Of a DNA stretch of 55,046 nt, positions 51,904-54,762 are shown in pieces. The notes below the pieces were generated by a model. That model saw only the letters and a program-made list of their open reading frames with translations. It ran no database searches and was not told where the DNA came from. Every line of letters starts with the position of its first letter. Position 1 is the first letter of the stretch. The stretch is from Flavobacteriaceae bacterium (lineage in GTDB: Bacteria > Bacteroidota > Bacteroidia > Flavobacteriales > Weeksellaceae): NCBI GenBank assembly GCA_012522185.1, contig JAAYKY010000047.1:1-55046 (forward strand). The letters run 5' to 3'. Both the position numbers and the translations under genes were made by a program.

Positions 51904-53910
51904 TCAATTCTGAACTTCTTGTAATTCTTTGATCATATCACGGAATTTAGCAGCTTCGATAAAGTCCAGGTTTTTCGCTGCTTTTTCCATTTTTTTCTGA
52001 AGTTCGTCGATTTTTTTGGACAAATCCTCAGCCGAAAGACTTCCAAATTCCGCCCGTTCATCCGCCGCAATCGTGGAAATGGTTTTTCGTTCGTAAGGAT
52101 TTAGCTCAAATCTTTCTGCAGAAGTATTGATGGCATTTATTTTCTTATTCAAAGGTTGCGGTGTCAAATTATTGTCCGCATTGTATTTCATTTGAATTTC
52201 ACGTCGGCGTTCGGTTTCATCAATGGTCATTTGCATACTGTTTGTGATTTTGTCTGCATACATGATCACTCGTCCGTTGATATTTCGAGCCGCACGTCCC
52301 GAAGTTTGGGTAAGCGAACGATGGTTTCTTAAAAATCCTTCCTTGTCCGCATCCAAAATCGCTACCAACGAGACTTCCGGCAAATCCAGTCCTTCCCGCA
52401 AAAGGTTTACGCCGACCAAAACATCAAACAATCCGGCGCGTAAATCCTGCATGATTTGAACCCGCTCCAAAGTATCCACATCGGAATGAATGTACCTTGT
52501 TCGAACACCAAATTTCGTCAGGTATTTGGTCAATTCTTCCGCCATTCTTTTGGTTAAAGTCGTTACCAAAACTCTTTCGTCTTCTTCCGCACGTTTTTGA
52601 ATTTCTTCCATCAAATCATCCATCTGGTTCAGGGACGGACGAACTTCAATGATGGGATCGAGCAGTCCGGTTGGACGAATGATTTGTTCGACTACCACGC
52701 CTTCCGATTTTTCCAGTTCATAATTCGCTGGCGTCGCCGAAACATAAATCACCTGATTTTGCATGGCTTCGAATTCTTCAAATTTCAGCGGACGATTGTC
52801 CATCGCAGCCGGCAATCGAAATCCGTATTCGACCAGATTTTCTTTACGACTCCGGTCTCCGCCGTACATCGCGTGAACCTGCGGAATGGTTACGTGTGAT
52901 TCGTCGATTACCATCAGATAATCTTGTGGGAAATAATCCAGCAAACAGAAAGGACGCGTCCCGGGCAAACGACCGTCGAGGTAGCGGGAATAATTCTCAA
53001 TCCCCGAACAATAGCCGAGTTCCTTCATCATTTCCACGTCAAATTCGGTTCTTTCCTGTAGCCTTTTTGCTTCCAGATGTTTTCCTATTTCTTGAAAATA
53101 GGAAACTTGTTTTCCCATGTCAATCTGAATGTTTTTGATTGCGCCGTTTAGCGTTTCGGGAGAAGTCACGAATAAATTGGCCGGATAAATATTGATTTTG
53201 TCCAAGGAATTGATTTTGCGTCCGCTCGCTGGATCAAATGTTTCGATTTCTTCGATTTCATCTCCAAAGAAATGAACCCGAATTCCTTGATCCGAATAAG
53301 CCGGAAAAATATCGGTCACATCACCACGAACACGGAAATTTCCACGTTGAAAATCTACTTCGGAACGCGAATAAAGCGAACTCACGAGTTTTTGTAAGAA
53401 TTTCGTTCGGGAAATGGTTTCACCGGTTTGAATGGCGATGATGTTTTTATGAAATTCAGTCGGATTTCCTATCCCGTACAAACAGGAAACAGAAGCTACC
53501 ACCAGCACATCGCGTCGACCCGAAAGGAGGGAAGAGGAAGTACTCAATCGCAGTTTTTCGATTTCTTCATTGATGGACAAATCCTTTTCTATGTACAATC
53601 CCGAGGAGGGAATATAGGCTTCCGGTTGATAATAATCGTAATAGGAAACGAAATATTCCACCGCATTTTCGGGGAAAAATTCTTTGAATTCCATATACAA
53701 TTGAGCCGCCAAAGTTTTGTTGTGCGCCAAAACCAAAGTCGGCCGCTGGGTTTCTTCCACCACATTTGCAATCGTAAAGGTTTTTCCCGAGCCGGTCACA
53801 CCCAAAAGCGTCTGGTATTTGTCTCCGGAAATAATTCCTTTGGACAAAGTTTCGATGGCTTTGGGCTGATCGCCGGTGGGTTGAAATTCCGAATGGATTT
53901 TGAATGGCAT
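51904..53910 (-). CDS. uvrB: Excinuclease ABC subunit B
   Basis: UvrB is the central damage-verification helicase of nucleotide excision repair. The 668-residue protein has Walker A GVTGSGKT (37-44), the damage-probing beta-hairpin [12 protein letters not shown] (about 93), helicase motifs (DESHVTIPQ, Walker-B-type), [12 protein letters not shown]-like VSATPANYE, and the C-terminal UVR domain ([15 protein letters not shown]). Length is standard. The start ATG 53910 follows a -7 box. The first ten codons plus promoter are duplicated 825 bp upstream, with a foreign-looking gene between the copies, yet uvrB itself is intact. Confidence 0.97.
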
Positions 53911-53937
53911 AATGGCTTGAAAATAAATGCAAAGTTA
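53879..53937 (-). repeat. 59-bp direct repeat, copy 1: uvrB -7 box, leader, start and first ten codons
   Basis: The segment matches 54704-54762 at 58 of 59 positions. On the minus strand it runs from the -7 box TAACTTTG, through a 19-nt leader, to the third-last base of uvrB codon 11. The single difference changes codon 2 (CCA here, CAA in copy 2). This copy drives uvrB itself. Confidence 0.92.
53930..53937 (-). promoter_or_regulatory. -7 promoter box for uvrB
   Basis: TAACTTTG on the minus strand fits TAnnTTTG and forms the upstream edge of the 59-bp repeat copy 1, 19 nt before the uvrB ATG. Confidence 0.6.
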
Positions 53938-53940
53938 CGC

Positions 53941-53965
53941 AAACCTGACAGGTTTTAAAAACCTG
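53941..53965. repeat. Overlapping CCTG/CAGG inverted units between the cargo gene and uvrB
   Basis: AAACCTG-A-CAGGTTT is directly followed by a second arm AAAACCTG pairing with CAGGTTTT. These nested palindromes could fold into alternative hairpins after the cargo gene stop (53981) and just before the uvrB -7 box, possibly ending the cargo transcript. Similar CCTGTC units lie downstream of uvrB. Confidence 0.5.
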
Positions 53966-53980
53966 AAAAGTTTTAAGAGG

Positions 53981-54688
53981 TTATTTTGGTTTTATCAATT
54001 TTCGAGTAGAAATTAATTCTTTCTTGCCGTTTTCAACTAAGTATTTTTTAGTCCAGATACAATCTCGGTTGTTGTATTTATAAACGTATTGGGAGATTTT
54101 AGCATTGTCTAAATCGGGTTCATTTTTTTGAGAAATGGACTGGGTTTTTTCTTTTACTGACTTGGACTCAATAACATTATTACATTTATTATATTTTAAA
54201 AAGGATGTTGTTCTCTGTAGAAAACCATGACTTGTCAATTCTATTGAGACAATCTGATCTATTAGTTCAGTTTCATTATATGAATAGCTTATTGAAGGGA
54301 GAAATCCTTCTTTCCATTTAGAGACTAATTTTCCGTTTTTATTATAGCTGTAGTAAAAATCTTTATCATATTCTAATAAATCACCGAATGGATATTGATT
54401 ATATAATTTGATAGTATCCTTCCTTAGATCCTTGATAATCATTTCTACATTGTTCTGCTTGTCATAAATGTAGGTTTCAGAATAAACTAAAGAATCTTTT
54501 ATAAAGTTTTGAGTCTTGATTACCTTTCCATCTTCCAAGATATATACGCTTTTTGAATCTTTAAACTCAGGATTGACTTCAATCACTTTTGAATATTTTG
54601 ACCAATTTGGATTATCTTCAAGAAGTTCTTGTGAATAGGATAAAATAGGGAAGATTAAAATATAAAGTATTAAACAATGAATTTTCAT
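53981..54688 (-). CDS. Secreted protein of unknown function (inserted between duplicated uvrB start segments)
   Basis: I do not recognise this 235-residue protein. It has a signal peptide (MKIHCLILYILIFPILSYSQ) and a mature part of repeated Y-x-Y and charged beta-strand segments (SVYILEDGKVIKTQNF, VYSETYIYDKQNNVEMI, DFYYSYNKNGKLVSKW) like YD-type accessory proteins of Bacteroidota. The gene is visibly more AT-rich than uvrB, consistent with lateral origin. Its ATG overlaps the stop of a 16-codon leader ORF derived from the uvrB start (ATGA), so translation is probably coupled. A longer reading frame that begins inside the repeat is rejected because it would lose the signal peptide position. 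Confidence 0.75.
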   Translation of the reverse strand: MKIHCLILYILIFPILSYSQELLEDNPNWSKYSKVIEVNPEFKDSKSVYILEDGKVIKTQNFIKDSLVYSETYIYDKQNNVEMIIKDLRKDTIKLYNQYPFGDLLEYDKDFYYSYNKNGKLVSKWKEGFLPSISYSYNETELIDQIVSIELTSHGFLQRTTSFLKYNKCNNVIESKSVKEKTQSISQKNEPDLDNAKISQYVYKYNNRDCIWTKKYLVENGKKELISTRKLIKPK

Positions 54689-54735
54689 AATAATAACGTT
54701 CTCGGTTGAAATTCCGAATGGATTTTGAATTGCAT
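54685..54735 (-). CDS. 16-codon leader ORF from a duplicated uvrB start, coupled to the cargo gene
   Basis: It begins in repeat copy 2 with the uvrB start context and reads [11 protein letters not shown], then leaves the repeat and continues R-T-L-L-L before TGA. The TGA overlaps the ATG of the secreted-protein gene as ATGA. Ten of the first eleven residues equal those of UvrB. A peptide role is unlikely; delivering ribosomes to the cargo start is more plausible. Confidence 0.6.
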   Translation of the reverse strand: MQFKIHSEFQPRTLLL

Positions 54736-54762
54736 AATGGCTTGAAAATAAATGCAAAGTTA
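54704..54762 (-). repeat. 59-bp direct repeat, copy 2: duplicated uvrB expression start
   Basis: This copy differs from copy 1 (53879-53937) at one base and is in the same orientation, 825 bp upstream. It carries an intact TAACTTTG box and ATG but no full uvrB behind it; instead it feeds the secreted-protein gene. Confidence 0.92.
54755..54762 (-). promoter_or_regulatory. -7 promoter box for the cargo gene (duplicate of uvrB box)
   Basis: TAACTTTG on the minus strand, identical to the uvrB box, lies 19 nt before the leader ORF. The bases further upstream differ from those of copy 1, so strength may differ. Confidence 0.5.

Follow-up and report, generated by a model that had tools for sequence, protein, structure and literature searches.

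Small accessory genes often stand alone in bacterial chromosomes, unaccompanied by mobile-element genes, and their movement is poorly understood. In Neisseria, minimal mobile elements are alternative cassettes that lie between conserved genes and are exchanged by homologous recombination; they are not known to depend on a truncated copy of the flanking gene. Insertion with long target duplication was described for restriction-modification genes of Helicobacter pylori (Nobusato et al., 2000, as presented in the accessible parts of PMC1643837 and PMC4978471), and the accessible part of PMC5361080 proposes one homologous and one non-homologous join for immunity gene arrays. We found no paper that joins homology-facilitated illegitimate recombination to toxin-antitoxin genes, and none of the matches listed dealt with such footprints by title; in the accessible text of two toxin-antitoxin reviews, the phrase 'long target duplication' appears only in the reference lists. 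Here we analyze contig JAAYKY010000047.1 of assembly GCA_012522185.1, 55,046 nucleotides (nt) from a Flavobacteriaceae bacterium (hereafter the window; contig C31 of the organism's own 63-contig draft genome, G000), in which the promoter and start of uvrB occur twice around a single accessory gene, here called X. We conclude that this structure is most likely the scar of DNA taken from a close relative, and that related bacteria have similar scars at other genes. A truncated neighboring gene end of this kind can be read: it marks the place of entry and, through synonymous differences, recombination with the DNA of a relative.

Results

The uvrB start lies on both sides of gene X

We found that a block of 59 base pairs (bp) is present twice in direct orientation, with 58 of 59 bases identical and the two starts 825 bp apart, spanning uvrB from its -7 box to its tenth codon exactly as the original prediction had described (Table 1). 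In the sense direction, each copy consists of the -7 box TAACTTTG, a 19-nt leader, ten codons including the ATG, and two extra bases. The sole difference between the copies is in uvrB codon 2, which is CCA in uvrB and CAA in copy A (P/Q). X is the only open reading frame (ORF) between the copies, and the expectation of one AT-rich gene ahead of an intact uvrB start proved correct: the fraction of G and C bases (GC) is 0.275 in X, 0.281 in the insert, 0.433 in uvrB and 0.383 in the window, and uvrB is full length. One other direct repeat of at least 30 bp is listed for the window, with 30 nt at only 83% identity, which excludes a chance origin for the 59-bp repeat. A 301-bp query containing the block matched these two sites only in the organism's own draft genome (E ≤ 0.001), and the block is therefore not a dispersed repeat, the outcome that the prediction had named as counting against it.

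The uvrB start was found once each in four of the five genus relatives compared (G001 to G004; no conspecific strain was included), thereby supplying the insert-free uvrB that was to be sought among relatives; in G005 the 301-bp query found no match, and none of the five has X. The relatives differ in the sequence that precedes uvrB, and for one of them (G003) just 195 bp upstream of uvrB are present on the contig. DNA similarity at their uvrB loci stops near the -7 box (53937), at window positions 53939, 53910, 53943 and 53938 for G001 to G004, and the outer edge of the repeat, the -7 box itself, lies near this limit. Beyond copy A, positions 54763-54880 gave short local matches only (scores 20-24) against the uvrB loci of the four relatives. 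Codon 2 of uvrB encodes S in G001, P in G002 and Q in G003 and G004; since P and Q both occur among relatives, both forms seen in the window are natural variants.

Accessory genes between copies of a neighbor's gene end recur in the family

An accessory gene between copies of a neighbor's gene end recurs in the family. We scanned uniformly 41 stretches of G000 (855,046 bases, the window included) and 400,000 bases each of G001, G002, G264 and G291, together 2.46 megabases from five genomes, for direct repeats of 35-400 bp with at least 75% identity, 150-8000 bp apart, of which one copy lay at the end of an ORF of at least 150 amino acids and the other outside any ORF. This rule was set after first scans had revealed uvrB, hutI, gcvP and a gene with HHH and S1 domains that we take to be tex-like, leaving G002 and G291 as the only genomes to which it was applied afresh (G264 had come up earlier). 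Eight rows passed (two in G000, three in G001, three in G291, and none in G002 or G264). Three of these were dropped, one at L132 as paired paralogues and two at L212 as intergenic repeats merely touching an ORF edge, leaving five accepted loci: uvrB, known beforehand, and four new ones at hutI, the tex-like gene, gcvP and a WYL regulator. With counts this small and stretches not chosen at random, we claim recurrence and give no rate. Candidates from the first scans that were set aside by eye comprised L054 and the L053 pair at 2138 (paralogues), L055 (a dispersed intergenic repeat) and L048 (related modules). At L048 (positions 1-4912; contig C35 of G000), a series of short ORFs with related repeats of about 35-189 bp resembles remnants of a repeated module.

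The original prediction suggested looking for further gene starts duplicated around an accessory gene, and such starts were found at the WYL regulator. We searched 60 genomes of the genus of G291 (g20), drawn from a larger group, and read G190, G186 and G298 further; G291 and G190 each have a second nearby copy of the WYL start with coding sequence, and G186 shows a promoter match. The repeat in G190 measures 250 bp at 93% identity with accessory genes between its copies, the copy in G186 is decayed (177 positions, frameshifted), and G298 has other repeats, none of which contains the WYL start. Scanning five insert ORFs of G190 and G186 gave one sub-threshold match to Imm35, an immunity-protein family, and one to MORN. 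Both WYL copies in G291 and in G190 keep TATATTTG and the ATG, and thus the WYL and uvrB cases have the same 5'-end arrangement. The region upstream of the WYL regulator in four g20 genomes (L198 5600-8745, L248, L249 and L250) holds varied small accessory genes, with promoter-and-start remnants in three.

In G003, an AbiEii unit at a different locus (L081) carries a hutI tail, a match reached by none of 1000 shuffles. This shows such a unit away from hutI and says nothing of how it arrived. A left-hand hutI remnant at the same locus was dropped, since 63 of 1000 shuffles reach it. No recombinase was recognized in the inserts of the accepted loci or in the five scanned insert ORFs of G190 and G186, and no common core sequence was visible by eye among the repeats of the accepted loci, which derive from different gene ends.

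Repeat copies at the sister loci look like diverged alleles

Had the repeats arisen by duplication and subsequent decay of one copy, most differences should alter the protein. Instead, synonymous changes account for 3 of 4 differing codons at hutI, 4 of 5 at gcvP, 7 of 8 between tex-like copies T3 and T1 (one of them a stop-codon swap), 3 of 3 at WYL in G190, 2 of 2 at WYL in G291 (counted to the first indel) and 0 of 1 at uvrB. In the pool, 19 of 23 differing codons are synonymous, versus a fraction of 0.19-0.25 expected by chance (p=2e-9 at 0.23 and 1e-8 at 0.25; p=1e-5 at 0.37, our reckoning for a neutral remnant beside a constrained gene; all assume independent codons). Tex-like T3 against T2 (7 of 7 synonymous) was left out to avoid a double count, as was the frameshifted G186 copy. 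At 5 of 5 informative sites in nt 27-54, the gene-attached copy T3 has the base of T1, and at 8 of 9 in nt 57-120 it has that of T2; at site 18 it agrees with neither. This pattern points to a crossover inside the repeat and to T3 as a mosaic of T1 and T2.

At gcvP, the arrangement in a relative is informative. G005 has similar ParDE genes between the gcvP end (cut by the contig end) and the next gene, and no gcvP remnant: the gcvP tail matches this gap no better than shuffles do (491 of 500 reach it), whereas the same test is positive in G001 (0 of 500). In G000, a hairpin but no ORF lies between gcvP and the next gene. G005 presents a donor-type arrangement, and the evidence points to donor DNA with ParDE beside gcvP, integrated through homology at one end and by a non-homologous join inside the resident gene at the other, with the resident gene end remaining as a remnant. 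After the distal copy of hutI comes a short AT-rich stretch resembling, by eye, the one downstream of hutI in G003; this marks the distal copy as the resident end. Given the synonymous excess, the tex-like mosaic and the cargo without remnant in a relative, the copies at the sister loci look like diverged alleles, and the repeat like the homology between donor and resident.

One alternative is that a staggered break, or an unknown targeted mechanism, let X in and copied 59 bp of the target, both copies then stemming from the resident uvrB. The architecture is that of the long-target-duplication pattern (in the accessible part of PMC1643837), a single base of 59 separates the copies, and repeat lengths are similar among the cases in the genus of the window (g1). 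Such an insertion is nevertheless unlikely, as differences across the cases are mainly synonymous, one of the tex-like copies combines the other two, and in one relative the cargo occurs with no remnant beside it; the 'targeted insertion with a long duplication' that the original prediction had offered as an option is not supported as worded.

Tandem duplication of a uvrB-X segment, followed by a deletion leaving ten uvrB codons ahead of X, would give an identical end structure, and the tex-like locus exemplifies such units in tandem. We regard it as quite improbable here, since it needs an ancestral X downstream of uvrB, where the present gene encodes an MFS transporter, and X is single in its genome and missing from G001-G005. 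A small cassette might also have integrated site-specifically at a gene end, the repeat serving as its attachment core and a gene elsewhere supplying the recombinase. This would suit the recurrence at gene ends, the intact target genes, the small cargo and the AbiEii unit that carries a hutI tail elsewhere in G003. We consider it very improbable: the repeats belong to unrelated genes, their sequences differ and their lengths range from 59 to 250 bp, the inserts examined yielded no recombinase, and the tex-like crossover falls within the repeat, as in ordinary homologous exchange. Although the outer edge of copy A is 284 bp from the end of the 55,046-base contig, an assembly or library chimera is extremely improbable, given that the copies differ by one base, that X is an intact AT-rich frame, and that four more accepted loci and the G190 locus lie in other contigs or genomes.

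A proposed route by homology-driven integration

In our judgment, the uvrB locus is probably explained by homology-driven integration: DNA of a relative that had X next to uvrB would have been taken in, and the resident start would have stayed as a remnant. The original prediction likewise preferred recombination at the 5' end of a gene to insertion sequence (IS) transposition, and a 59-bp repeat with X alone between its copies bears this out. We infer the donor and resident step at uvrB itself from the sister cases. DNA of a close relative, carrying X and its terminator hairpin directly upstream of uvrB, would enter the cell and recombine through uvrB homology, its other side being joined without homology ten codons into uvrB. 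The incoming piece could be linear and undergo one-sided homologous and illegitimate integration; alternatively, it could be closed into a circle and integrate by a single crossover within the shared 59 bp, in which case each copy might be part donor and part resident. Both versions would yield the same end product, in which the resident uvrB promoter and start remain as copy A, uvrB continues from copy B, and copy A gives X a -7 box, a leader and a start whose 16-codon frame ends in a TGA overlapping the ATG of X. The flanking copies of the gene start, once in place, might in turn provide short arms of homology through which transfer to other strains could proceed.

Several points weigh against integration of a relative's DNA. 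None of the 296 genomes searched showed X ahead of a uvrB without the duplication, and the scan returned no row in 400,000 bases of G002 or of G264. Remnants in genus g1 (loci of G000 and G001) are short, at 59, 60, 79 and 128 bp, and more uniform than random joining suggests. The single uvrB difference (P/Q) is non-synonymous and offers no allele test at this locus, and the G291 remnant decays past its first indel and the G186 remnant is frameshifted, as under neutral decay. As to DNA uptake, comEC is present in the organism's own genome, but it is widespread (10 of 14 control genomes) and no proof of competence. Natural transformation has reportedly been observed in two Riemerella species, placed in the Flavobacteriaceae, and Flavobacterium johnsoniae is said not to have been competent under the conditions of the same report. 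The one-sided process is called rare in the accessible part of PMC5361080, and that of PMC3240628 expects deletions from linear one-sided integration and ascribes duplications to single crossovers of circles (109-950 bp, Escherichia coli), which speaks against the linear version. Because of that expectation and those findings, precedent for a duplication is stronger for the circular version, at least in E. coli and in the accessible text; that version also fits the duplication more simply.

As a tentative generalization, the toxin-antitoxin, immunity-like and secreted-protein genes of this family may spread as units bearing a duplicated fragment of a neighboring housekeeping gene's end, which would serve as a portable homology arm. 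Such an arm would permit entry into any relative by ordinary recombination, harmlessly at 3' ends and with capture of a promoter and start at 5' ends, and 'insertion with long target duplication' would then be largely exchange between alleles.

Gene X and its possible expression

X occurs in 5 of 296 genomes of the family, that of the window (G000) included, and the other four all belong to genus g20. Its homologues are 36-41% identical across the main matches, and the one in G262 has an internal stop. Two of the four homologue loci (L018 and L021) share the same neighbors and the other two differ; none of the four loci read contains uvrB or repeats of at least 16 bp. Nor do the homologues have a recognizable uvrB start, the best matches being 28-34 of 59 bases versus 28-33 in 20 shuffles of one locus, which the single 34/59 match (L021) exceeds by one. 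A scan of genome contigs for X relatives found one, in Chryseobacterium carnipullorum. Searches with X or its alignment against Pfam, NCBIfam, plasmids and PDB gave no family above the curated cut-off and no NCBIfam, plasmid or PDB match; Pfam matches below cut-off were APOBEC3 (16.1 versus 27 bits) and DUF6141 (14.3 versus 27 bits). An AlphaFold2 model of X alone was uninformative (mean predicted local distance difference test score, pLDDT, 41.5). From the signal-peptide-like N-terminus, its product is predicted to be secreted.

The accessible part of PMC6847099 gives TAHHTTTG as the F. johnsoniae -7 consensus, with a weak -33 element. Since both copies carry TAACTTTG, X probably has its own transcription start at copy A. 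Of the proposal that an accessory gene here borrows a housekeeping promoter, the borrowing is thus likely, and activity of the promoter is suggested by its sequence alone. X may be transcribed from this uvrB-type promoter and translated by coupling; as a TGA/ATG overlap of this sort is expected in about one frame of three (our own estimate), we offer translational coupling only as a suggestion. Read-through from X into uvrB is possible, as the hairpin after X has no T run. Palindromes like AAACCTGTCAGGTTT (window 53941-53973; L024-L033) are repeated in the organism's own genome, standing beside a gene 3' end at ten of ten places read. We therefore rejected the hairpin 3' of X as a mobile repeat; the check covered ten places, and the recurring palindromes are apparently ordinary terminators. 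An ORF at 54937-55046, beginning 110 bp from the contig end, was considered as a candidate IS1182-type transposase, and its 36 readable residues gave no Pfam match.

Table 1. Features of the uvrB locus (window positions) and of the four further accepted loci (locus or genome given).
Feature	Position	Strand	Basis
uvrB, intact, 668 amino acids	51904..53910	-	TIGR00631 1028.6 bits; NF003673 1051.9 bits
Repeat copy B: -7 box, leader, ATG and first ten codons of uvrB, continuous with the uvrB body	53879..53937	-	Sequence
TAACTTTG, -7 box of uvrB	53930..53937	-	Sequence; matches TAHHTTTG (PMC6847099, accessible part)
Terminator-like hairpin 3' of X, no T run	53941..53973	-	Fold -11.8 kcal/mol; 3 of 200 shuffles equally good
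Gene X, 235 amino acids, 27.5% GC, N-terminus signal-peptide-like (by eye)	53981..54688	-	Sequence; homologues found in genus g20 only (296-genome search)
16-codon frame that begins at the duplicated uvrB ATG; its TGA overlaps the X start codon	54685..54735	-	Sequence
Repeat copy A: uvrB promoter and start, broken off after ten codons, ahead of X	54704..54762	-	Sequence
TAACTTTG, -7 box of copy A, likely promoter of X	54755..54762	-	Sequence
Upstream flank with GC-rich hairpin, as far as the ORF that leaves the contig	54763..54936	.	Sequence
hutI 3' end, 60 bp; AbiEii gene and DUF6922 ORF between copies	L053 13047-14061 (G000, contig C51)		Scan, profiles
Tex-like gene 3' end, 128 bp, three copies; two tandem units of a 120-amino-acid gene, no Pfam match	L123 17712-19073 (G001, contig C1)		Scan
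gcvP 3' end, 79 bp; ParE and ParD between copies	G001		Scan, profiles
WYL regulator promoter and start, 235 aligned positions; DUF2931 gene between copies	G291		Scan

Discussion

The architecture of the uvrB locus matches insertion with long target duplication, and the process we propose matches homology-facilitated illegitimate recombination or single-crossover integration. As in the former, an accessory gene stands between long direct copies of its target (59 bp, 58 of 59 identical), and the empty site is single-copy in related genomes (four of five genus relatives). The cargo in H. pylori is often restriction-modification genes, according to the accessible accounts, and toxin-antitoxin genes in two of the sister cases here. 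Unlike long target duplication, one edge of the repeat coincides with the -7 box so that the copy carries a promoter and start, and the copies in the sister cases resemble diverged alleles rather than duplicates made by insertion. An IS or transposon also comes to lie between direct repeats; here, however, the repeat measures 59 bp, X alone lies between the copies, and no transposase was detected (no family above cut-off). The locus is likewise unlike an integrase-borne island at a gene end, as no recombinase ORF was found in the insert and no shared attachment core was seen by eye.

A non-homologous junction with microhomology is a feature of homology-facilitated illegitimate recombination. 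This process combines one homologous with one non-homologous join (accessible part of PMC5361080), and single crossovers of circular molecules left partial target duplications (accessible part of PMC3240628). In contrast to those laboratory crosses and one proposed model, the present cases are natural footprints, with a donor-type gcvP arrangement in a relative and a 5' version that bears a promoter. What seems new is the recurrent set within one family, the allele evidence, and this 5' version, which would give an incoming gene a promoter and start and so offer the newcomer a simple route to a working promoter at once.

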